64,000 nucleotides of DNA. Origin: Tubulanus polymorphus. Taxonomy: Eukaryota; Nemertea; Palaeonemertea; Tubulaniformes; Tubulanidae. The position numbers were made by a program, and so were the translations under genes. Position 1 is the stretch's first letter. Every line of letters begins with the position of its first letter. Under the pieces are notes generated by a model, which saw only the letters and a program-made list of their open reading frames with translations, searched no databases and was not told where the DNA came from. Below, piece by piece: positions 5,641-55,192 of this stretch. Where the stretch lies: positions 20,540,450 to 20,604,449 of the forward strand of contig NC_134029.1 of the NCBI RefSeq assembly GCF_964204645.1, in the 5' to 3' direction.

Positions 5641-7152
5641 GTTAGATGAGTTGAAATGTTCTGATGTTTTAATTAGACGGATGGGAATCTAATGAAGATG
5701 AGAGAACATTAAATCACTGTTCAATCTCAGGTGATCTGTACTCTGTATCTCTACACAATGTTACGTATCTGTAACTGAAATCAGTCTCTGTTTATGGTTT
5801 GAACAAAAACTAATGTTTTACACTCATTTCAGGATGAGATTCTAAGAATTCTGCGCATCTTGATGAAAAACGCTTTAAATTTGAGGAAAATGGTGAGTCT
5901 TTGATGAAACTGCTGTTATTCTATTACAACTTATGCATGTATGCTTCTATATACAAATTATGTATTTCAGGGGTCGAAATGAAGCTGAACCTGAACAAAT
6001 CTGCAATTTACAGTAAACATTGCGCTCTAAGAATGAAATAAGTCGGAAGTGGTGAGTTTTATATCGATTTATCGAACTATTTAACTGACAATTTGTAACA
6101 TTGGTACATTTGTTTTTAGGAGGCAAAATAAGCGGAACATTTGACAGAATCCGTGAACAGTAAACATCGCCAATTCACTGAACATTTGTAAATGATGGAC
6201 ATCGATTCAGATCCTCAAAACAAATAACGGTACATATCTCTACAGATTCCAGTCTTGCTACTGTTTGGTATTAAGTCATTTCCTAATAAAAGACAGTTTT
6301 TATTTTATGATCATCCAGTTCCACACAGAATGAACTACATCTGAGCTGAAACAGTGGTGAATTTGAAATCATTCCACCAGAATTAAACACCAAGGAATTA
6401 TAATTAAGGTGAATACTCAATCACTTCTATCCTGGTCACAGTTAAGATTATCAGGAGAAAATTATGCAGCATTTGTATTTCAGGGGTCGAAATAAAACTG
6501 AACCTGAACAAATCTGCAATTTACAGTAAACATTGTGCTCTAAGAATGAAATAAGTCAGAAGTGGTGAGTTTTATATCGATTTATTGCAGTAATTTGTGG
6601 TGATTTATCAGTTATAAACAATTTATTATTTTTGTCCGGTTTCTATAGATTTATCTCCAAATGAAGTCAGGAAAATGGTGGATTTTTGAAGGGTGAATAA
6701 GACGACAGTTTAAAGCTACTATCAGATACCTCAGAAATCTGCATCACTTAACACATAGTGATAAACTACTCAAAAACATGGTAGGTTTTCTGTCAATTGA
6801 ACACAAACAATCCGCAGTTTCTATTTATTTCACTAATGATTTTCTGACATAATTTTCTCATTTCAGAATACGATGCACCAAACACAAATTGCAGCAGGAG
6901 AAATTAGAATATTCACCTTCAAAGAGTGAAGAAACTCTCTATTTCAGGAAATCATCAGTGCTCTGAACTTTATGACATTATCTGAAATCCTGCTATAGAA
7001 ATTGTCTGCATCGTCAAAATAGCACTAAACTAATCTGATACATGGTTAGAAATGGTGAGTTTTGCTCTAATTTGATAATAACCTAAAAATGTATTATTCT
7101 ATGCGGTATTTTTATGTGTGATTCTCTAGAAAGTTCTGTAAGAAATGTGGCT

Positions 7153-7535
<383 letters not shown>

Positions 7536-17182: not shown

Positions 17183-18389
17183 AGATGAGTTGAAATGTTC
17201 TGATGTTTTAATTAGACGGATGGGAATCTAATGAAGATGAGAGAACATTAAATCACTATCACAGGTGATCTGTACTCTGTATCTCTACACAATGTTACAT
17301 GTATCTGTAACTGAAATCAGTCTCTGTTTATGGTTTGAACAAAAACTAATGTTTTACACTCATTTCAGGATGAGATTCTAAGAATTCTGCGCATCTTGAT
17401 CAAAAACGCTTTAAATTTGAGGAAAATTGTGAGTCTTTGATGAAACTGCTGTTATTCTATTACAACTTATGCATGTATGCTTCTATGTACAAATTCTGTA
17501 TTTCAGGGGTCGAAATGAAGCTGAACCTGAACAAATCTGCAATTTACAGTAAACATTGCGCTCTAAGAATGAAATAAGTCGGAAGTGGTGAGTTTTATAT
17601 CGATTTATCGAACTATTTAACTGACAATTTGTAACATTGATACATTTGTTTTTAGGAGGCAAAATAAGCGGAACATTTGACAGAATCCGTGAACAGTAAA
17701 CATCGCCAATTCACTGAACATTTGTAAATGATGGACATCGATTCAGATCCTCAAAACAAATAACGGTACATATCTCTACAGATTCCAGTCTTGCTACTGT
17801 TTGGTATTGATTTATTGCAGTAATTTGTGGTGATTTATCAGTTATAAACAATTTATTATTTTTGTCCGGTTTCTATAGATTTATCTCCAAATGAAGTCAG
17901 GATGATGGTGGATTTTTGAAGGGTGAATAAGACGACAGTTTAAAGCTACTATCAAATACCTCAGAAATCTGCATCACTTAACACATAGTGATAAACTACT
18001 CAAAAACCTGGTAGGTTTTCTGTCAATTGAACACAAACAATCCGCAGTTTCTATTTATTTCACTAATGATTTTCTGACATAATTTTCTCATTTCAGAATA
18101 CGATGCACCAAACACAAATTGCAGCAGGAGAAATTAGAATATTCACCTTCAAAGAGTGAAGAAACTCTCTATTTCAGGAAATCATCAGTGCTCTGAACTT
18201 TATGACATTATCTGAAATCCTGCTATAGAAATTGTCTGCATCGTCAAAATAGCACTAAACTAATCTGATACATGGTTAGAAATGGTGAGTTTTGCTCTAA
18301 TTTGATAATAACCTAAAAATGTATTATTCTATGCGGTATTTTTATGTGTGATTCTCTAGAAAGTTCTGTAAGAAATGTGGCTGGTGCTG

Positions 18390-18801
<412 letters not shown>

Positions 18802-28810: not shown

Positions 28811-29155
<345 letters not shown>

Positions 29156-30574: not shown

Positions 30575-32310
30575 TTTTACCGGCCGGTACGGGTATAGGC
30601 TACAGGCTACTGTTGTTCTGTTTGTGATGGTTTTACCGGCCGGTACGGGTATAGGCTACAGGCTACTGTTGTTCTGTTTGTGATGGTTTTACCGGCCGGT
30701 ACGGGTATAGGCTACATGCTACTGTTGTTCTGTTTGTGATGGTTTTACCGGCCGGTACGGGTATAAACTGCATGCTACTGTTGTTCTGTTTGTGATGGTT
30801 TTACCGGCCGGTACGGGTATAGGCTACAGGCTACTGTTGTTCTGTTTGTGATGGTTTTACCGGCCGGTACGGGTATAAACTACATGCTACTGTTGTTCTG
30901 TTTGTGATGGTTTTACCGGCCGGTACGGGTATAGGCTACATGCTACTGTTGTTCTGTTTGTGATGGTTTTACCGGCCGGTACGGGTATGAACTACATGCT
31001 ACTGTTGTTCTGTTTGTAATGGTTTTACCGGCCGGTACGGGTATAGGCTTCAGGCTACTGTTGTTCTGTTTGTGATGGTTTTACCGGCCGGTACGGGTAT
31101 GAACTACATGCTACTGTTGTTCTGTTTGTGACGGTTTTACCGGCCGGTACGGGTATGAACTACATGCTACTGTTGTTCTGTTTGTAATGGTTTTACCGGC
31201 CGGTACGGGTATAGGCTTCAGGCTACTGTTGTTCTGTTTGTGACGGTTTTACCGGCCGGTACGGGTATGAACTACATGCTACTGTTGTTCTGTTTGTAAT
31301 GGTTTTACCGGCCGGTACTGGTATAGGCTACATGCTACTGTTGTTCTGTTTGTGACGGTTTTACCGGCCGGTACGGGTATGAACTACATGCTACTGTTGT
31401 TCTGTTTGTGACGGTTTTACCGGCCGGTACGGGTATGAACTACATGCTACTGTTGTTCTGTTTGTGATGGTTTTACCGGCCGGTACGGGTATGAACTACA
31501 TGCTACTGTTGTTCTGTTTGTGATGGTTTTACCGGCCGGTACGGGTATGAACTACATGCTACTGTTGTTCTGTTTGTAATGGTTTTACCGGCCGGTACGG
31601 GTATAGGCTACAGTCTACTGTTGTTCTGTTTGTGATGGTTTTACCGGCCGGTACGGGTATAGGCTACAGGCTACTGTTGTTCTGTTTGTGATGGTTTTAC
31701 CGGCCGGTACGGGTATAAACTGCATGCTACTGTTGTTCTGTTTGTGATGGTTTTACCGGCCGGTACGGGTATAAACTGCATGCTACTGTTGTTCTGTTTG
31801 TGACGGTTTTACCGGCTGGTACGGGTATAAACTGCATGCTACTGTTGTTCTGTTTGTGATGGTTTTACCGGCCGGTACGGGTATAAACTGCATGCTACTG
31901 TTGTTCTGTTTGTGATGGTTTTACCGGCCGGTACGGGTATAAACTACATGCTACTGTTGTTCTGTTTGTGATGGTTTTACCGGCCAGTACGGGTATAGGC
32001 TACATGCTACTGTTGTTCTGTTTGTGATGGTTTTACCGGCCGGTACGGGTATGAACTACATGCTACTGTTGTTCTGTTTGTAATGGTTTTACCGGCCGGT
32101 ACGGGTATAGGCTACAGGCTACTGTTGTTCTGTTTGTGATGGTTTTACCGGCCGGTACGGGTATAAACTGCATGCTACTGTTGTTCTGTTTGTGATGGTT
32201 TTACCGGCCGGTACGGGTATAAACTGCATGCTACTGTTGTTCTGTTTGTGATGGTTTTACCGGCCGGTACGGGTATAAACTGCATGCTACTGTTGTTCTG
32301 TTTGTGATGG
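30575..32310 (+). repeat. 56-bp satellite, 31 copies
   Basis: The span of 1,736 bp is exactly 31 x 56. Each copy starts TTTTACCGGCCGGTACGGGT, containing the palindrome ACCGGCCGGT, and ends TTCTGTTTGTGATGG. Variation is almost confined to the middle (ATAGGCTACAGG, ATAAACTGCATG, ATGAACTACATG) and to GTGATGG/GTAATGG/GTGACGG. Substitutions without length change suggest recent expansion under homogenisation. Confidence 0.96.
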
Positions 32311-33330
32311 TATATCACATATCCTTAATAACATCTCATAAAGCTGTAATGTCAGTTTTTCTAGTAGAAAAGCCTCCATAGGTGATTTAAACCCACTATG
32401 TACAAATATACATATATATATATATATTATTCATCAACAATCATTATCAAAATAGGTAAATGAATGAATAACTAGAACAAAACGCACAAAATAACAAAAT
32501 CTCTCAACCTTAGCACAAAATAACCAACTCTTACTCTCTAGACTTTCTCAATTAGCTTGTTCTTCGCTCTATATTTTCCCAGTGTTCTAGTTATTTTTTC
32601 GACGCCTGATGATGATCTCTAGAGATTCTCCAAAACGTCGTGTAGTTTGATTTAATTCTTTTAATTTAAAGTGGGTTTTAATCTTATTTAATTTCTCATG
32701 AAAATCGAAATTGAAAATTGATTATCCGCTTTCTGAGATTGATCAAGAGCATAAAGATACTCGAGTTTGTATTTTGAACCCCAGAATCTGTGTATGCATG
32801 TATCAACTTGTATATTATCATTGTAAATGGACTTATTTTGTATGATGTGTCCCACAATAAAAAACCAAAAAGTTGAAATCATTTCAACTGAGAATTTTTT
32901 ATTATGGGACTTTATTCTGTATTGAATTGTTTTATTGTTTTATTTGAAATAAAAATCTTTTTTTCTGTGTTGTTCTAGTTATGATTACAGACGCCAGCAG
33001 TTTCACAGACTCTGCTGCGTCACATCCAATCCGTTCAGTTTCACACACAAACACACACACATAATTCAACGTGTTTTCTATTGAAGAAAAAAGTTGAAAT
33101 TTGATTAATTAAATGTTTGTGAAACTGATTCAGGCACCAGTTGCACAGTCCACCCTCATGAACTGTCTTGAGATTTATTTAAGATTGGTTATAGAACCAA
33201 GACCTAGTCTTAGGCTGGTCTTAACCTTATAACGCCATGCAACTGGTCCCAGGGATTAAATACTGTTTACTATGCGAGGGTTTTATTGATTCTTGCCCTG
33301 CGGTATGCGAGGGTTAATAATCTGTTCTAA
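32311..33330. other. Intergenic stretch with an AT microsatellite
   Basis: Contains (AT)n at about 32411-32427 and a MITE-like element (listed separately). TATGCGAGGGTT occurs twice around 33271 and 33303. No supported gene. Confidence 0.5.
33136..33247. mobile_element. Small MITE-like inverted-repeat element
   Basis: ACCAGTTGCA at the left and TGCAACTGGT at the right are perfect inverted repeats about 112 bp apart. The interior is also partly self-complementary (AAGACCTAGTCTTAGGCTGG). Non-coding; classification is inferred. Confidence 0.55.
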
Positions 33331-34090
33331 GAAATCCTAGTGTTGGCCTACTTAATAAACGAAGAAATCCTAGTGCTGGCCTGCTTAATAAACGCAGAAA
33401 CCCTAGTGCTGGCCTGCTTAATAAACGCAGAAATCCTGGTGCTGGCCTGCTTAATAAACGCAGAAATCCTAGTGCTGGCCTGCTTAATAAACGCAAAAAT
33501 CCTAGTGTTGGCCTGCTTAATAAACGCAGAAATCCTAGTGTTGGCCTGCTTGATAAACGCAGAAATCCTAGTGCTGGCCTGCTTGATAAACGCAGAAATC
33601 CTAGTGCTGGCCTGCTTGACAAACGCAGAAATCCTAGTGCTGGCCTGCTTAATAAACGCAGAAATCCTAGTGTTGGCCTGCTTAATTAACGCAGAAATCC
33701 TAGTGTTGGCCTGCTTAATTAACGCAGAAATCCTAGTGCTGGCCTGCTTAATAAACGCAGAAATCCTAGTGCTGGCCTGCTTAATAAACGCAGAAATCCT
33801 AGTGCTGGCCTGCTTAATAAACGCAGAAATCCTAGTGTTGGCCTGCTTAATAAACGCAGAAATCCTAGTGTTGGCCTGCTTAATAAACGCAGAAATCTTA
33901 GTGTTGGCCTGCTTAATAAACGCAGAAATCCTAGTGTTGGCCTGCTTAATAAACGCAGAAATCCTAGTGTTGGCCTGCTTAATAAACGCAGAAATCCTAG
34001 TGTTGGCCTGCTTAATAAACGCAGAAATCCTAGTGTTGGCCTGCTTAATAAACGCAGAAATCCTAGTGCTGGCCTGCTTTAATATACGCA
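33331..34090 (+). repeat. 33-bp minisatellite, about 23 copies
   Basis: Unit AAATCCTAGTGCTGGCCTGC followed by TTAATAAACGCAG. Because 33 is a multiple of three, a 267-residue forward frame of an 11-residue repeat (LINAEILVLAC) stays open from 33340 to 34143. There is no splice or start context beyond the repeat, and the opposite strand is open too, so I treat it as non-coding. Two degenerate units follow. Confidence 0.93.
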
Positions 34091-34855
34091 GTTACCCTTG
34101 TGTTGGCCTAGTGATGAAAGCAGTTACCCAAATATTGGCCTAGTGAATAGACGCAGTCACCCTAGACTTGTCGCCTGACCACCCGCATTCACAGTCAGGA
34201 ATACCTGAGACCGGCAACCAGTCTACAGTCACCCTTTATATCAGCTCCAGTCCTCATTTCTTGGAATTGTAATTGACCCGTCCATGCTGCTGTCTCGCCT
34301 TGCGTGAGGTAAGGATCTTGCTTACCAATGGATCGATGATGTCTACAGTTTCAGTGTTTTTATGTTCTTGTTTTGCAATGGCATTTTAATGATTTTGTGG
34401 CTTCATGTTAAGCGCGATGATTACTAGTAGCGGTAAAACTATTTAGTTTTTATCATTATCGATTGATTTATTCACTTATTTCTAGCAAAATATCTATCAT
34501 CTAATTCATTATCGACTGATTCGTTTTGTTAACGCAAAGCCGCGTACGAGCCGAAGTGTTTTGAACTTGAAAGGCGTGGGTGACTTTAGATGACCAGCCT
34601 TTGCTTCAGAAAAAAAAAACATGTTATTACATAATAATATTTACAATGGCAGGCTTGAAGTTTAATTTCACCAACTGATTGCGCGTACTACAGTCAACAA
34701 GGGCCACTTAGATTACACACGGAACTGGGCCACTGATAAACTGACTGCGATGGAAATCCCGTGCACATTCTCGGAATACTTATGTTTTCGAAAACAACAT
34801 CCGTAAAACGATTCTCTGGAGGGGCTCGCTGTATCATTCTGAAACACGAGACACC
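34091..34855. other. Upstream region of the BRICHOS gene
   Basis: Unique sequence after degenerate minisatellite units. The last 100 bp or so probably holds the promoter and 5' UTR of the BRICHOS gene, but I see no clear TATA box. Confidence 0.4.
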
Positions 34856-36142
34856 ATGAACACAGTTATTCAGATTGTCGTGTTGGTCGCAGGATTATGT
34901 AATCAGGTATAGATAAGAGATTGAATTGTACATATTTGACACCCATATCTTGGCGAAATTGAAACGCAATTCCATGACAGAACAGTACCTTAAGTTATAG
35001 ATTCTAGGCCTACTGAAACGGCATTGTATTAGATTTCCTTCGTTGCATTTCTAAAGGATCAGATGTTTATCGGTTTCGCACTGTTTTAAAGGGTGAATGA
35101 AATATCTAGTCACATTTTTTCAGTATTTCGTGAAGGGTTCTGTTCGCAGCTACCGGGAGATCTCGGTACCCGATTCCGTGAATTCAGATGAAGTAACAAT
35201 TTTACATGATTTAGAATTGGTATGTTCTAGTTTGATCGGATGAAACATCATATCACATATTTCTTCATCGGCGTCCATCGACGTTGTTAACATATATTAT
35301 CATTTATCTAGGGATATACAGCCTACAGAGATAGGACAATCGGAGTATGTTTCATTTCACGTATTATACCGTCAGTTTTCCGGTCTAACTCCAAGTCGTT
35401 GACGTTCAAATATTATCTTGATTCAGACGTAAGTAAACAGGATGTACATAAAAATAGACACTTTCTCGCGTGCATATTCATATATTCGCAGTTTTGGACC
35501 TTTAAAAGCATAACTACCGGGTATTCAGTAATGAAATCTCAATCATAATCTTTTGCTTCGGCGTCGCATATATATATATAAGATATGACTCTACGAGTTG
35601 AATTGAAAAAGCTAAAGAGCTTAACCACGAATTGTGGTGCACCGTATCCTAGTGTTGTCATTGTCATTTGATAATCTTTCGTACAACAAACTATCATTTT
35701 TCAGACTTTGCCTCAAACACCTGATATAATGCTGAAAGCTACTGGAATTTTGAATGATTTGACCAGTTTTGGAAGTCGTATAACCAAACACTGTAAAGAT
35801 TTGCCGGTCCTGATGACTGAACCCGGGAACGCTCGGCGAACCCCCGTCGTTCTACCACGACGAAAGAAACGAGCCTGGGCATCGAGTACTTCAGTCTCTG
35901 TCACATCTGATGGAAATGTTATTTCATGTTCGGACGAACAGACGGGCGAAAGCGTGTCAACATTCTGCTCGACAAACACGACGGACACAAGGCATGGAAG
36001 CAGACGCGGACGTGGTCGGGGTCGGAGTGGGCGTAGAGGTCACGGTAGAGGGGCAAATAGATCAGAAGAAAGAAGAACCGATGCCGGGTCGGACTGGGAA
36101 AGGGAGAAAGAGCAATCGTGGTGGGATTGGCTGACTTCGTAA
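34856..36142 (+). CDS. Secreted BRICHOS-domain precursor with cationic C-terminal peptide
   Basis: Four exons in phase 0 (34856-34906, 35125 to about 35220, 35312-35428, 35705-36142) give about 233 residues. Exon 1 is a signal peptide (MNTVIQIVVLVAGLCNQ). Residues about 40-118 match a BRICHOS domain: VTILHDLEL-GYTAYRD, then two conserved cysteines (C62 and C118, the latter in THC) and the conserved Asp. After it comes PRRKKR, a furin site at 140-144. The released tail of about 89 residues has two cysteines (C163 and C176), an Arg/Gly-rich stretch (184-207) and a Trp-rich end (SWWDWLTS). BRICHOS acts as an intramolecular chaperone in proproteins. In annelids such precursors carry beta-hairpin antimicrobial peptides (arenicin, alvinellacin, capitellacin). 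Here a peptide role is inferred and the tail matches no known peptide that I recall. The 5' edge of exon 2 is uncertain by one base. Confidence 0.8.
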
Positions 36143-36209
36143 AAACTGACCACTGCCACTATATATACATCGTTGAACTATAGTTTTTTAGTGACTAAAA
36201 TTGAGCTCT

Positions 36210-36215
36210 AATAAA
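36210..36215 (+). terminator. Polyadenylation signal of the BRICHOS gene
   Basis: AATAAA about 70 bp after the stop codon. Confidence 0.6.
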
Positions 36216-36688
36216 AAATCATTAGTTGTCATTTAATCTAGAACCGGATTAAATACTCTAGAATCGCTTTCATAATTGACTGTAACAAATTACTATTTTT
36301 TCACGACGGGGTCGCGGTCACCGCAGCGGGTCGGCGTGAGTATAATTGCGATCCCGGTCGGTCCACCGGGCCGAGACTGTCTTTCATTGTATACTCGTCG
36401 TTCAGGCTGCATGATCAAAATTTCTTACATCATATAACTATGTAATCATACATGATCATAGTTGGCTATATCGAGTCCAGTCTTGTCAGTCTTCGAGAAC
36501 CGAGTAACCCGAAGGCCGGCCGAAGACCATCAAAACAAAAACCCGGATCCAAAACCGTGAGCCGGAATTTACGGACAACTAATCGAAATTGCGCAATGAC
36601 AACGGGATTCCGTGAAGTCATTCGGCATTTGACAGTGGAAACCCCGTTTTTTTCAACAAATTAAAAACACAATTTGAGGTCATTAATC
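36216..36688. other. Intergenic region between BRICHOS and DHRSX genes
   Basis: Contains a GC-rich patch at 36303-36382 with partly complementary GGTCGCGGTCACCG and CCCGGTCGGTCCACCGGG. The DHRSX promoter and 5' UTR are expected here. No gene supported. Confidence 0.4.
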
Positions 36689-36697
36689 ATGTTATGA
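36689..36697 (+). promoter_or_regulatory. Minimal uORF overlapping the DHRSX start
   Basis: ATG TTA TGA; its stop overlaps the first ATG of the main frame (ATGATGG at 36694). If the 5' UTR includes it, it could lower initiation at the first DHRSX ATG. Inferred only. Confidence 0.35.
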
Positions 36698-39000
36698 TGG
36701 CGATAATTTTTCGTATTCGATATTTCATATATATCTATTGGATTGCAATAAGAGAAATCTTCAAAGGAATCTTTCATAAAGACAGAAATATTTACGATGT
36801 AGGCCTAGGTGAGTATAAAAAGAAAAGTGAAATGCACTTTATTCAACAATTCTGAGTAGTTCAGCTACAACTGGATTCAGCTTAATGATCGGGTATTTCC
36901 TCAAAATAGATTCATTTCCCGATTAAAAAAAGGTTAATGACCGAAACACTTAACTGTATGTAAACACGTATCTATTATTTTTAAGATTCACAGAAGTTCG
37001 ATGTAGGAAAGCAGGAGTCGAGATGTGTTGCTATTGTCACAGGTGGTTCAAAAGGTATCGGTTATGAAGTTTGCCTTCAACTTTCATTCAGAGAAAATTA
37101 CCACGTCATTATAGGTAAGTATACTGAGTCGTCAGTCAACATCTTCTAGATTCAATATTCCCCTCATTTTTACATTCCTATAAATTTACTCTCGATTTCA
37201 GCCTCGCATTGCGATGAAGAAGGAGAAGCAGCAGTGAAAAATATCAAGAATATAAATCCACAATCATCAGGTTACTATTCTGAATTAGTTTGATGATTCG
37301 GTTTCCGGTAGAAAAAATAGACACAAAATTTTGTGTTTGATTTCAGTTGAATTCCAGAGTTTGGATTTAGCCGACTTTGATTCCGTCAATGACTTCGTTC
37401 GCAGATTTAAACGAAGAAAAATCGGTTTGAATTTGCTCGTCAACAATGGTAAGCATTGTTATATCATATTAAGATTTATTTCTTTTAAAACGTCGGTAAA
37501 TCTCTGTGCTTATACAGACTGAATTTGGTTAATTTCAGCTGGTATTATGATTCCGAAATACGGCGTTACGAAGCAAGGTTTCGAGTCACAATTCGGTGTG
37601 AATTATCTCGGGCATTTCTTGTTGACCCAACTATTGTTGGATTGTTTGAAAACGTCGGCTAGTGACCAGTTTCAGTCGAGAATTGTAAATGTGTCTTCGG
37701 TGGTCCACGAAATGGGTTACATCAACTTTGAAGACCTTCAAGCCAGGTGTGTGCCGGCACGATGCTGCACAAAAATGTAAACATGTAATGGGGTACCAGC
37801 AACGAAACATTGGTTAATTTCTAGTGAAGATCTGTTCATTTTCGATGAAATTTGAACTGGGTTTTTAGACTGCCAAATCCAAAAATTATCCAAATCCTAG
37901 GAGAGATATAAGATCCACTGTCATTGAGGAATGTCTCATGAGAAAAGTTGATTCAAATTTAATCGAAATGTAGATGGAATTGAAGCGCGGTGACCCAGTT
38001 ACGACTAGTGAGCCTGGCATGGAATCCTTGCTTGCTACAGTATCTTTGCTGGTAGCCCATTCATCATTGATTTTTCCTCATTCCACATTGTATGGTAGAG
38101 TTCTACTTTCAACTATTCAACTTTAGATTAACCTAGAATTGCAGAATTGAATTTTGTCGAGCGCAAGAATGAATCGGTTGTAAAATCTAATACGCGTCGG
38201 TTTAATACTTTTCAGACGTTCTTATTCCGCTCACTTCAGTTATTCGCAATCGAAGATAGCGTTAATACTTTACACATACGAGTTACAGAGACGACTTGAA
38301 AACTGTAACGTTGTAGTGAACTGCGTAAATCCAGGCGTTGTCTACACCAGTTTATATCAGCACGCTTGGGCTTATAAACTCATGCAATTCATCGGCAGAT
38401 ATTTTATGTTGGTAAGTTTGTTCGAAGAAACGGTATGTGTAATATTCTTCCAGGTCCCATTCAACAGTTACTGGTTTAAGTTGATTCTTATCAAAGCATT
38501 GGGATAAGGCAATTTACGACGAGTCAAATCCAAACCGAAAGAACCAGCACTCGGTATAAATGTTTCTCCCATGTGGATGAAATCATAATCACATATAATT
38601 TCTAACTCAAAACAAGAAAATTATTATCAGTTAAGAATCAGTTATCGCAAACAGATTTCTGGTCTTGACATCTATTGATTTAATTCTAACTATCGTTTTA
38701 GGTTTTACTCAATTCGCTATAAATTGAGTTTACCCCTTGGTTCTGAAGTTGTAAGTGATCTTTGATTAGGAACCAGTTTTATCTGATGTTTTTACGTTAA
38801 TTTTCCAGACTCCAAAGGAGGGAAGCGCAACGATACTTTACGCGGCATTGTCTCCTGAATGTAGCAGCCGATCTTGTTCTTACTATGACAACTGTACTCG
38901 AGTACCTTCATCACCGTTGACCTATGACATTCATTTACAGAATGAGTTGTGGTACCTGAGCCACCATTTAACTCAACTTCATCCAATGGACAAATCATAA
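36694..39000 (+). CDS. DHRSX: DHRSX-like short-chain dehydrogenase/reductase
   Basis: Seven exons (36694-36808, 36986-37114, 37202-37270, 37347-37448, 37539-37746, 38216-38411, 38809-39000) with consistent phases give 336 residues, close to the 330 of human DHRSX. A hydrophobic N-terminal anchor is followed by the Rossmann motif TGGSKGIG (57-64), LVNNAG (135-140), [12 protein letters not shown], the serine region NVSS (189-192) and the catalytic YSQSK (Y217, K221). The C-terminal part ([17 protein letters not shown], then [17 protein letters not shown]) follows DHRSX rather than retinol dehydrogenases. DHRSX is a membrane-associated NAD(P)-dependent oxidoreductase acting in the polyprenol-to-dolichol route. 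Exon 2 uses the acceptor TTTTTAAG rather than the CACAG 8 bp further on, because only the former keeps phase. Confidence 0.92.
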
Positions 39001-40396: not shown

Positions 40397-42742
40397 TCAC
40401 CACCTATCGCTCCAAACCGGACGCCGATCGACCCGCGGTTTCGCGCTGACGGGCCTCCGACTCCGGGCGCTGCTCACGTTACTGTTAATGCTACAAACGC
40501 TGCGAGTTCTATTTTTGTCCGATAATAAAAGCGTATTTTCTCTATCCGTATCCGTTCCGTCTTGTTGATATATCGGAAATGGCAGACCGTACGTCATGCG
40601 ATCGTGATAGTCTCGCAACATTCTCTCGCGCGATATCTCTTTCGTCGGTTTAACCTTTTGCAATCGATTCAAAAATTTCTGTAAGACAAAAACGTGAAAC
40701 TCTTTTAAGGCTGTGCAAAGAATCGTTCCTAAGACCTTTAAAAAGAGGGATAGCGTGTACTTTAGGTCAATGTGAAATTTAACACATTCGCTTGTAATTC
40801 TGACAGCAGGGGTCAGTTCCGTAGTAGAGAGCAAAGGTTGACAATGTAACAGCTTCAGTGCCAACTGGCAAATGGGGGGGGGGGGGGTGGCACTGTAAGC
40901 AACAAAAAAAGGAAATCCGTACAGCAAACTCAGCCTTATTAGGTGGTGTTTGGAATTTCAATTATTCACACCGAACTGAGAATCTGGGAAAAAGAGGCTT
41001 TTTCCAAATCAATCTTATTCTTAATTCTTTCCCCAATTCAGATTTTTCACAAATAAATCTTCAGTATATTTGGAGTTGGCCGGTACCCAGTTAGGCTGTC
41101 GACTGTAATATCAAAGTAGGCCTATGTGAAACTTACCAGATTTTCCTCTTCAATTTTTTTCTGTTCTCGCTGTCTGTTAATGGCCGAATGACTGAGTCGT
41201 TTAAACGACGGATTTTTAGCCGACGACGCGCGCGGTTTTTTCGGCGTCAGTCGATGTAACAAGCGTTCGTTTTCGCGTTCGATTTCCAATTCGCGGCCGC
41301 GACTGAACGAGTAATTCGATTTTTTACGCTGTTTTTCGGGAATAAACAAAACGCGTCGATTCGGATTTTGAACGCGTTCCTTATCCAATTCCAAAACGGC
41401 TTCCATCAAAACTTGCAAGTCCATTTTTTCTTTTTCGATCTCTTCGACGTTTTTACCGTTCGGCAGTTTTTTCTGGTACTGCACGAAATCTTTATGCGTC
41501 ACCGGACTTTTCGGCGGTTTTTTATCGAGGCTATTTTTTCGCTCGCGCGTACCGTTTTTTTTAGCCGCGCGATCCGGCGAAGTCGTCGGACTTCGATTCG
41601 GCGAGGCGAGCGGGGAAACGTCCGTCATGTCGCTATCGTCAGAAAGTTCCGAGCCCGAATGATCGGAAGCCGAACTGGAACCCGAATAATCGTAGTCGTC
41701 CTTCGTAGATTTTTCCTCGTCGATTTCCTCGTTCGAAACGGTCGGGATTTGTACGATCGGCTCGTCGGAGCCGCTACGAGAAGATTTCTTACTCGGAGCG
41801 CTGTGCTCCGGAGAAGAGTCCGATTGAGATTTTACAGCGGATGGAGACGAATCTCTCGAACGAGATCGCGACCGAGATGAAGCGGACGACGATCGACTCG
41901 ACGATGATCGGGAGTCGCCGCCGCTGCTGCTGCTCGACGATCGCGAAGAGGATCGAGATGAATTCGAAGATCTGGACCGTTTTTGCCGTTTACCGCCATC
42001 GTCATCACCCGATAATTCATCGGTCTCGGAATCTAAAATAAAACAACAATTTCAATAATGACATCGCCGACGAGGTGTAAAACGTTGAAACTACTGATTA
42101 CTGATGTAATTAATGAATTTCCAAAGCATCAAATTTCTAGGATTCTAGGCTAGCCTGAAAACCAAACGATGCACAGGTTCCCCTACCGTCCCTGTTTGGG
42201 AAAAACTAGTTGCTACCTTCATCATCAGACATTGTCATGGATGAAATGAAGGCCTGGCCCTGAATCATTATGCAATTGGGCTATCAGCAATTTAGATAGT
42301 CAGTAACCTGTCTGTGGTTTAGTTTCACGATTGGATATTTTCACAAACCACATCTTGGTATAAGCCCATCCGATTATAAAAAGCTTACCACCAACGATTA
42401 GGTAACTAACTACAATTTAGAAGGTGTTGTTCAAACGCCTTGTTCAAATTGCGAAAAATGTTTACCTATTCTATTATTCATCGACCCTTTATCATCTTTG
42501 TCAGTATTTCCAATAATTTTTGATTGCTGTTCTGATTTCACTGAATCTGTCATAACTGTTTCAGTTTTATCGTCGTTATCTTCTGGATTTGATTTTTCAG
42601 CAGCAGCATCATCAGAATGTTCTTGCAAAATATCAGATGTATCATCGATTTTTTTGGCAGTTACAACTTTCGACGTCCTGGGTGACTCGAAAAAATCATG
42701 GTCGACACTACCCCGTAACGCTGGGTCGATTTCTGAAGACAT
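40397..42742 (-). CDS. CFAP97: CFAP97 (hemingway) ciliary protein
   Basis: Three exons on the minus strand (42466-42742, 41137-42032, 40397-40678) give 484 residues; human CFAP97 is slightly longer. The N-terminus has the family's VDHDFFESP motif. The middle is a long Ser/Arg/Asp-rich stretch ending in TDVSPLASP, also seen in the human protein. The C-terminal half holds the conserved NYSFSRGRELEIERENERLL and the HSAINRQREQKKIEEENL helix, which continues across the last intron into NRLQKVKPT and MLRDYHDRMTYG. The family is needed for motile cilia and sperm flagella (Drosophila hemingway). A 13-G run lies in the last intron near 40874. The gene is head to head with the HMG-like gene, about 1.15 kb apart. 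Confidence 0.92.
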
Positions 42743-52226: not shown

Positions 52227-55192
52227 ATGTCGGATTCCGAAGAAGATTTTGCGAGTGCTGATGAAGGCGAAAATACCGAACGTGGACACAGAACGCGCAA
52301 GAACAGCGGCAGGTCGAAAAAATCGGGGTCATCGACGACGTCCCCTCCTAAATCGGCAACAACAGACCGTAAAGATGAAGAGGTGAAAGCGCCAATAGAA
52401 GTCGATTCAGTAAGTGGTAGTGAAGTAGTAGATGTTGTCTTAAATGAACCGCAATCTCAAGATATTCTTGATGAAAAGAATGAATCTCGTGAGCTTACAC
52501 CGACTAGAAACGTCGAACGGATGAAAGATGAGAGTCAACCGCTGGTAGATTCAGAAGCAGTAAGTCCGTGATGATATTGACAAAAATGTGTCGTATCTAA
52601 TTACTGTGATTTGCATCTCAGTAAAGCATATACATTTAATTTCAAACATTATATTTACAGGCATGTAATACCGATGGGGGTTGGACCTCTTCATTTGGAA
52701 ATTGGGGAAGTGCTTTTCTATCTACGGCAACGAAATCGATGTCTACCTTAACTCATTCAGTCGGTAAATAACATTCTAGATTATCATCTTGAAAAAAAGA
52801 ATCAACTTGAAATTTTTCAGTCGATAAATCTGATCCTTGGCTTTTAGAGGATGGTTTCCAGACGGTGCTAGATACTGTGGAGGCTACATTGGCCGTTCCT
52901 TCTCCAGAAGAAATGGCCGCGCAACAAGCGGCTGATGCTGCCAAAGAACACGATGCGGTGGAGGAAGAGGAGAAAGAAGGTGAAGAGAAGACTGATGAAA
53001 AGGGAGGAGGTTCAACAGTAGGAAGCTGGTTAGGTTGGGGAGCGGAAGGATTCTCAAATATCACTCACAAAGTCCAAGAAACGGTAAAGCAGTCGCAGAA
53101 AAATTACTGGCCAAAATGAAACCTCCTAAATAAAGCACTTATGATGATTTAATTGTTTTGATTTTTAGAGTAAAACGTTTGTACATGGGTCGCTTGATGT
53201 CTTAGAAGCTATTGGAAAGAAAACTGTCGATGCTTTAAAGGAGGGTGACCCCGGATTTCAGAAAACTAAAACAATGATGCATTCTGGAAGAAATAAACCA
53301 GTCCTATCAGAGGTAGGTACCTCTGTCTACATCATTGATGATTCCGTTAAATGGCTCAAGTATCTTATTACCACTTATTTCATATTCAGGTTCTCAGGGA
53401 AGCGAAGGAAACTGCGGAAAAGAATGCTGAGGCTGAAAAAGAATTCGAAGAATCAAGGAAGGCGAATTTCAGCGCTCAATTCGATGATGCACAAGGTACT
53501 ATTTAAATTCTAAGGCCAGAAGAAGGAAATTCTGTCTAATATAAGTACATATATAAAGCTGATATATCCATTACGTTGACCTCATATTCAGGTTTAGTGC
53601 ATCTGGAAGCTTTGGAAATGCTATCAAATGAAAGCGAAAGCAAAGTGCAGTCATTATTGTCAACGATGTCGGCCGACGTTTTAGAAAAACTTAAAACTGA
53701 ACTGATTCAAATCAAGGATCATTTTGAAATAGATGAAGTCGACGATGAAGGTAATTTTCTATGAGAAATGATCTCAGTACGTAGAGCCTTACCTTCTACT
53801 GAAAAAAGAAAAAGATATTAATTTATTCGTTTTTCACAGAGGAGACAGATGATCATGATTTTGTAAATTTGATTACCAATCATCTTAGTGACCTGCATAT
53901 CGAAGCATCACCCGATAAACTTCTCAAGGTAAAAAGCCTGTACCTCGCAGGGTTCATAGCAAGGCTCCAAAAATAAGTGCTTATTTTTTGAAAACATTTA
54001 GTAAAGCCCTTAAAAGTTACTTTTCACAAATATCAATAGGCAGCTTACTTTTGACTTCTGGCATCCCAAATTATGTTTTGGATAATCATATGTTATGGAC
54101 GAGTGGACAATCACGATGAGGGCCATGGTTTTCAATGCGTTACAGAAGACCATTCTTTTCTATTCTAAATTTTTCATGAGTGCTTGCTTATGCCTCAGCC
54201 TTACTACCATGAACCCTGTCTACGTCGATTCACCGGTTCACCATTTATATCGACAGTTCTTATTATAGTCTCAGTCAGACGGTCGAACACAGATAGAAAC
54301 GTGCAGCAACCTGACCGACGGCAAAGATATCCATCAACACGCAATCCAATCACTGGCTTTGATTACATCCCGCTCCGTCGAACAATTCCACAAAGCCGGA
54401 GAATTAATCCTTCTGCGTAAAAATCCGACTACCGATTTCAAAGTTCGCGCGCAAACAATATCAGAGTGAGTCGGAGACCTCGATTTTCGAATTTTGAAGT
54501 TTTTTTGCCTATTGTTATTCTATTATACCTGCGTTGATTTATGATTTTCAGTTTGACCAAAGTGATGTGTTCCGAAGTTGGAATTATATCGTCGAAATAT
54601 ACCGAAATCCTTAATTCAATTATTGTAAGTGCTGCTTATACAACGTACGTATCTGTAAACTCGTCATAGTCTGAGCACTCAACTGTGGGTATTTATATTT
54701 GTAGGAAAATGCCGAGGATAAAGATAGTATTAACCAGTACATTACGAATATCTATTTAGAGGTAAAGATTTATATCCATTCGGAAATAGCAGGGTCCGAT
54801 CTAAGGAATAAAAGCCACTTGCCTGTCTAGTACATCATAATCGGATTTAGTGCTTAGATCAGACCCTTAATAGCATATCAGGGTAGTTCATTGAAACGTG
54901 AGTAGGTATTAAAACAGTAAAGACCATCAGACTTGTGATGTGATCATTAAACACATATTCCTGATACTATCAAAACTTTTCCTTATTCTTTAGTTCTGAA
55001 ACTCATCCTCTAGGCTTCGTTTAAGCTTTGGTAATTACTATAGTTCCATAGACCAGATGGTGAAAAAATGATTAACAATATTCGTCTCTTTATATTCAGG
55101 CAACTAACAGCAGTACATACATTCAAGATGCATTCCAGTTGTTATTGCCAGTTTTACAACTAGCGGCAATTGAAATCCAGTCTGAAACTTAG
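52227..55192 (+). CDS. FAM114A2: FAM114A family protein (NOXP20-like)
   Basis: Eleven exons (52227-52559, 52661-52763, 52821-53083, 53169-53312, 53390-53495, 53592-53750, 53840-53928, 54269-54465, 54552-54624, 54705-54761, 55100-55192), all in phase, give 538 residues. The order is an acidic Ser-rich N-terminus (SDSEEDFASADEGE), a WG-rich block (GGWTSSFGNWGSAFLSTATK), DGFQTVLDTVEATLAVPSPEE, GSWLGWGAEGFSNITHKVQE, then the helical core HGSLDVLEAIGKKTVDALKE and LVHLEALEMLSNES typical of the family (DUF719). Vertebrates have FAM114A1 and FAM114A2; the single invertebrate gene is co-orthologous to both, so the number is a convention. Members are linked to Golgi/Rab2 and neuronal functions, but the molecular role is not settled. 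Confidence 0.92.

Follow-up and report, generated by a model that had tools for sequence, protein, structure and literature searches.

A probable secreted BRICHOS prepropeptide with an unusual three-block C-terminal tail

The window, by which we mean the whole 64-kb stretch of DNA analysed, carries a BRICHOS gene on the + strand, running from an ATG at 34856 to a TAA that ends at 36142. Open reading frames and splice sites were read together as four exons, giving a spliced product of 233 residues. The features of this gene and of its neighbours are as follows.

34856..34906, + strand: exon 1, ATG and a hydrophobic leader of 17 residues, a putative signal peptide; weak donor
35124..35219, + strand: exon 2, linker and start of the BRICHOS domain, with HDLEL at its end; phase 0 on both sides
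35312..35428, + strand: exon 3, carrying GYTAYRD and C62, the first of the BRICHOS cysteines; both boundaries in phase 0
35705..36142, + strand: exon 4, second BRICHOS half with C118, cleavage site, whole tail and stop; open frame 35675-36142
35184..35809, + strand: BRICHOS domain, residues 38-123, Pfam PF04089 (span includes introns)
35858..35872, + strand: RRKKR furin-type site, residues 140-144, from the motif; predicted cleavage
35873..36139, + strand: tail AWASST...WLTS, 89 residues, net charge +1; no match above family cut-off
35873..35989, + strand: acidic Cys-pair segment of the tail, 39 residues, net -5, with C163 and C176; by composition
35990..36067, + strand: Arg/Gly block, 26 residues (about 184-209), net +9, with RR pairs inside; by composition
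36068..36139, + strand: acidic Trp-rich end, 24 residues, net -3, SWWDWLTS; by composition
36210..36215, + strand: AATAAA polyadenylation signal, starting 68 bases past the stop
37523-37777 and 38184-38504, + strand: adh_short pieces, Pfam; a further exon near 36985 by eye
41125-42051, - strand: Hemingway/CFAP97 domain, Pfam
52811-53510, + strand: DUF719 in two pieces, Pfam

The adh_short pieces belong to short-chain dehydrogenase exons (36985-38504, + strand) that lie directly downstream of the BRICHOS gene. On its other side, positions 2831-29897 are occupied by direct repeats nested in one another and up to about 4 kb long, with offsets of, for example, 4.4, 7.1, 10.5, and 11.2 kb. The 25 longest matches are mostly 91-97% identical, and the region, which also holds GCT arrays at 7150-7535, 18380-18801, and 28817-29154, looks like a recent tandem expansion. 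Two minisatellites follow, at 30575-32311 (56 bp x 31) and 33330-34109 (33 bp x 24), the second ending about 750 bases ahead of the start codon of the BRICHOS gene. An Rfam search of the 64-kb window at gathering score gave no match, and a bacterial-type promoter scan, which is ill-suited to an animal gene, gave none either.

The three introns of the BRICHOS gene are all GT-AG and all in phase 0; together with the ATG and the TAA, they fit the coordinates and the four exons of the initial annotation. A single frame is open from the BRICHOS domain through RRKKR to the stop, with the AATAAA beyond, and the ATG frame of exon 1 contains no second ATG back to the nearest upstream stop. Splice sites were scored in bits on a generic matrix, for which the top-5% mark over the window's 3,638 GT sites is 2.0. 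On this matrix, the exon 1 donor (CAG/GTATAG) is weak at 1.1 bits, the remaining two donors score 2.0 and 3.1, and an unused donor-like site at 34308, upstream of exon 1, is far stronger at 6.7 bits. One of the three acceptors used reaches just 3.0 bits; none above 4 bits was found between 34300 and the exon 1 donor, nor in 36000-37010. Inside exon 4, the only donor above 0 is at 36120 (1.0 bit) and every acceptor scores 3 or less, and because of these low scores we see no clearly better splice that would take out RRKKR or the Cys pair. The gene model is least secure at exon 1.

Random sequences with the exon's own make-up, drawn 2,000 times from a first-order Markov model, leave all 145 codons of exon 4 open in 0.35% of cases and the 89 codons of the tail by themselves in 5.9%. 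Two competing open frames overlap this exon, one on the + strand (35817-36134, 105 codons) and one on the - strand (35713-36039, 108 codons). A codon-usage score trained on 1,964 codons gave -0.09 for the tail frame versus 0.04 for the reverse frame in a test without power, the three BRICHOS stretches themselves scoring at or below zero (-0.20, -0.34, and -0.01). The coding support for the tail is moderate.

The BRICHOS hallmark pointed out in the initial annotation was confirmed by hmmscan, in which residues 38-123 of the spliced product matched Pfam PF04089 at 38.3 bits (cut-off 25; E 1.6e-9). These values place the assignment far above chance, and BRICHOS is the sole Pfam family at E up to 1 for the 233-residue product. 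HD occupies residues 45-46 and is followed by GYTAYRD, and the cysteines C62 and C118 are spaced 56 residues apart, so that the superfamily signature of two cysteines and one aspartate (D46 of HD) is present. In the PDB search, the Bri2 BRICHOS chain 8rnu ranked first of six, with an E no better than 0.026, and aligned across the HD...TAY.D...C stretch, including HD and C62. We take D46 to be the position of Bri2 D148, which is consistent with this alignment.

RRKKR lies between the BRICHOS domain and the C-terminal peptide, 16 residues past the Pfam match, and its motif indicates that cleavage after it is likely. The proregion (residues 18-144) contains 20 Lys/Arg and 13 Asp/Glu, a net charge of +7, or +2 without RRKKR, and is not acidic. 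The N-terminal leader of 17 hydrophobic residues presumably acts as a signal peptide, and is encoded by the exon with the weak donor. The product has the class and the layout of a BRICHOS precursor.

The RRKKR site, the 89-residue tail, its cysteines 13 residues apart, the Arg/Gly run, and the Trp-rich end were all located where the initial annotation had seen them. It had called the released peptide cationic, which holds for the Arg/Gly block (+9) and fails for the tail as a whole (+1), for the Cys-pair segment (-5), which has no Lys or Arg, and for the Trp-rich end (-3). On this charge, we rejected the idea that the whole mature product is an arenicin-type cationic hairpin. The Arg/Gly block is almost free of hydrophobic residues, unlike amphipathic membrane-killing peptides. 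Three RR pairs in the tail end at residues 189, 199, and 212. We also considered whether the Arg/Gly block is a slipped DNA repeat, and rejected this reading given the mixed codons of the tail (13 Arg of five types and 11 Gly of four) and Tandem Repeats Finder, which at default score listed nothing over the block.

Neither in Pfam (best E 0.16) nor in NCBIfam (best E 0.061) did the tail match any family above its cut-off, and no solved chain in the PDB matched it significantly (best E 0.14), in agreement with the initial annotation, to which the C-terminal peptide had looked new. Its Arg/Gly part weakly matches Sm D1 (E 0.14) and the basic tail of the chemokine CCL21 (E 1.4), matches that we read as composition only. 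The observed maximum of the Chou-Fasman beta score of the tail was reached by 0.5685 of 2,000 shuffles, and the best window fell in the Cys segment.

Neither the gene nor its tail showed a close paralogue in protein searches of the genome (267.8 Mb, 77 contigs): one search returned six matches, four of them the gene's own exons and two at E >1, and a second matched the BRICHOS gene alone. Within the window, tblastn likewise gave the gene itself and nothing else below E 3. Scans of prokaryote contigs (27 pattern matches) and viral contigs (one pattern match) produced no relative. A genome search with PF04089 scored two candidates and missed the split domain of the window itself, and therefore gives no count of BRICHOS genes.

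We did identify an ITM2-like BRICHOS gene, L001 (G000:C9:15626782-15629910), of which five exons were read (BRICHOS 44.5 bits, E 1.8e-11). In its protein, a stretch rich in His precedes an RHRR site, which is followed by a 31-residue C-terminal product. An intron before the xxTAxxD motif is common to both genes in place and phase, ahead of the exon with NLTAIVD in L001 and with GYTAYRD here, and this sharing supports the model of the BRICHOS gene. The motif exon has 39 codons here versus 37 in L001, where this exon and the membrane-segment exon both end in phase 0. Past the motif exon, the alignment is loose (24% identity), and the next exon boundary in L001 may differ. The local alignment of residues 18-144 with the L001 product scored 47, within the range of 500 shuffles (mean 32.0, sd 5.7, maximum 54), so it is the Pfam profile and the common intron, rather than pairwise similarity, that speak for kinship.

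A Hox cluster of ten genes on one strand lies within about 320 kb of contig C6 (G000:C6:5318228-5634747). By eye, we take its genes to be Post2, Lox2/Lox4, Antp, Lox5, Scr, Dfd, Hox3, Hox2, and Hox1; both a Lox2- and a Lox4-like gene are present. With Lox5, Lox4, Lox2, and Post2 so named, the animal is presumably a lophotrochozoan. Searches for the erythrocruorin-linker and haemocyanin families, which had no positive control, gave no match, and a search for COX1 of the mitochondrial genome gave none either.

Taken together, this is a real gene for a probably secreted BRICHOS prepropeptide with an unusual three-block tail. The explanation that we tentatively prefer, at somewhat below an even chance, is that the tail is an effector of defence or of the mucosal surface. 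The leader would direct the product into the secretory pathway, where the BRICHOS domain, with a C62-C118 disulfide expected from the family, would act as an intramolecular chaperone during formation of the C163-C176 pair. A furin-like convertase would then cut after RRKKR144 and release the 89-residue peptide. Further convertase cuts at the three RR pairs could divide this peptide into three, an acidic one with a single disulfide, an Arg/Gly one, and a Trp-rich one that is again acidic. The Arg/Gly block may bind anionic surfaces such as lipopolysaccharide, glycosaminoglycans, or nucleic acid, and the Trp-rich end may touch membranes or partners. For the defence or mucosal-surface role we are guessing from what is known to become of annelid BRICHOS precursors, and we would put its chance at roughly one in three. 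The net charge of +1, the acidic Cys segment, and the near lack of hydrophobic residues in the Arg/Gly block count against a defence role. The preferred explanation also has to face a proregion that is not acidic, a beta score not above shuffles, a codon usage that does not favour the tail, and a similarity to the ITM2-like product within the range of the 500 shuffles.

A structural or signalling role appears about as likely as the defence or mucosal one. The same precursor, cut at the same site, could release a component of mucus, adhesive, or tube or shell matrix, or a peptide hormone, and we regard this as a serious possibility, still short of probable. The acidic, Arg/Gly, and acidic-Trp blocks, with charges of -5, +9, and -3, would then form a self-associating or glycan-binding piece, and the internal RR pairs resemble those of prohormones. 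The Sm D1 and CCL21 matches, when read as composition, also point in this direction, although neither is significant. In an extension of this kind that we consider improbable, the client chaperoned by the BRICHOS domain would be an RGG-like polyampholyte containing Trp, which after secretion would condense extracellularly, for instance into mucus, glue, or a coacervate that traps microbes; such a client is not described in the portions of the open BRICHOS literature compared.

It is unlikely that the domain itself is the working part, as a secreted or membrane-bound chaperone, with a disordered tail that is unreleased or functionless. The tail's lack of a family match and its unexceptional beta score would suit such a protein, as would the lack of a close paralogue, unlike the multigene preproalvinellacin described in the sections of PMC5431198 compared; the position of RRKKR just past the domain argues against it. 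Improbable, too, is a partly wrong gene model, in which the leader or the tail would be altered by another splice or by another first exon, such as one encoding a transmembrane segment. Such an error could enter through exon 1, which has just 17 codons and a donor far weaker than the unused site at 34308. The ITM2-like gene has a transmembrane segment, and its cleavage-site exon is preceded by an intron in phase 1; a transmembrane segment also replaces the signal peptide in 5 of the 13 HfBRI precursors, as described in PMC10745061. Against this, the introns used all fit phase 0, no other in-frame ATG precedes the start back to the upstream stop, and neither the stretch from 34300 through exon 1 nor 36000-37010 holds an acceptor above 4 bits, though one of those used scores 3.0.

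New peptides have come out of BRICHOS precursors since, as PMC10745061 puts it in the part compared, the domain can be recognised and the released peptide cannot. If the tail is released, the BRICHOS client here would have a layout of charge blocks and Arg/Gly and would not be a short cationic peptide, and it would test the breadth of the clients that BRICHOS chaperones serve. If the animal is no annelid, the gene would test whether such precursors extend beyond annelids.

Compared with known systems, the gene shares with ITM2 (Bri1-3), including L001, the BRICHOS domain, a furin-type site, a C-terminal peptide, and the intron before xxTAxxD. It differs from the ITM2 layout, a type II membrane protein with a short C-terminal peptide, in its 17-residue N-terminal leader and 89-residue tail, the membrane part of this difference depending on exon 1. 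In L001, the exon preceding the linker codes for a membrane segment, RHRR is followed by a peptide of 31 residues, and there is the extra phase 1 intron. The review PMC10182729, in the part compared, describes BRICHOS proproteins as ending in a beta-prone region, proSP-C excepted. Among the genes up-regulated in the mussel digestive gland, a BRICHOS-domain protein appears close in the list to a C-type lectin and a defensin-like protein, the trigger being a diet of toxin-producing alga and not infection (PMC4203926, in the passages compared).

Closer in layout are the annelid antimicrobial precursors (arenicin, alvinellacin, capitellacin, nicomicin, abarenicin, and the HfBRI series), which, in the sections compared, have a leader, a BRICHOS domain with two Cys and an Asp, a dibasic site, and a C-terminal peptide unrelated in sequence (PMC6265681, PMC10745061, PMC7761999, PMC9410094). 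Their proregion is reported as anionic in arenicins, alvinellacin, capitellacin, and nicomicins (PMC6265681), whereas it is not acidic here. Preproalvinellacin has five introns, the last ahead of the peptide region (PMC5431198); here, there are three, and the tail shares an exon with the second BRICHOS half. The peptides with reported activity are short and cationic in the descriptions compared (capitellacin, 20 residues; HfBRI-25; HfBRI-28; nicomicin, 33 residues), whereas the tail here has 89 residues, a net charge of +1, and three charge blocks. The initial annotation had called it far longer than the peptides it named, which is correct for those; published BRICHOS tails, however, span 18 to 91 residues (PMC10745061).

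Long tails are found in HfBRI-54, HfBRI-75, and HfBRI-91 of Heteromastus filiformis, and since HfBRI-75 and HfBRI-91 are long and without pronounced cationic character, and are grouped with antimicrobial precursors by their authors, neither the length nor the low charge of the tail is new (PMC10745061, in the parts compared). Compared by description only, HfBRI-54 combines a hairpin containing Cys with a random-coil end rich in Thr, HfBRI-75 and HfBRI-91 carry 11 cysteines versus two here, and the section compared mentions neither an Arg/Gly block nor a Trp-rich end for them (PMC10745061). The main text of the open BRICHOS literature compared, including PMC9627735 and PMC9714404, contains no tail that combines an Arg/Gly block with a Trp-rich end. 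The precursor class is known, and the three-block tail, judged by its composition, looks new.
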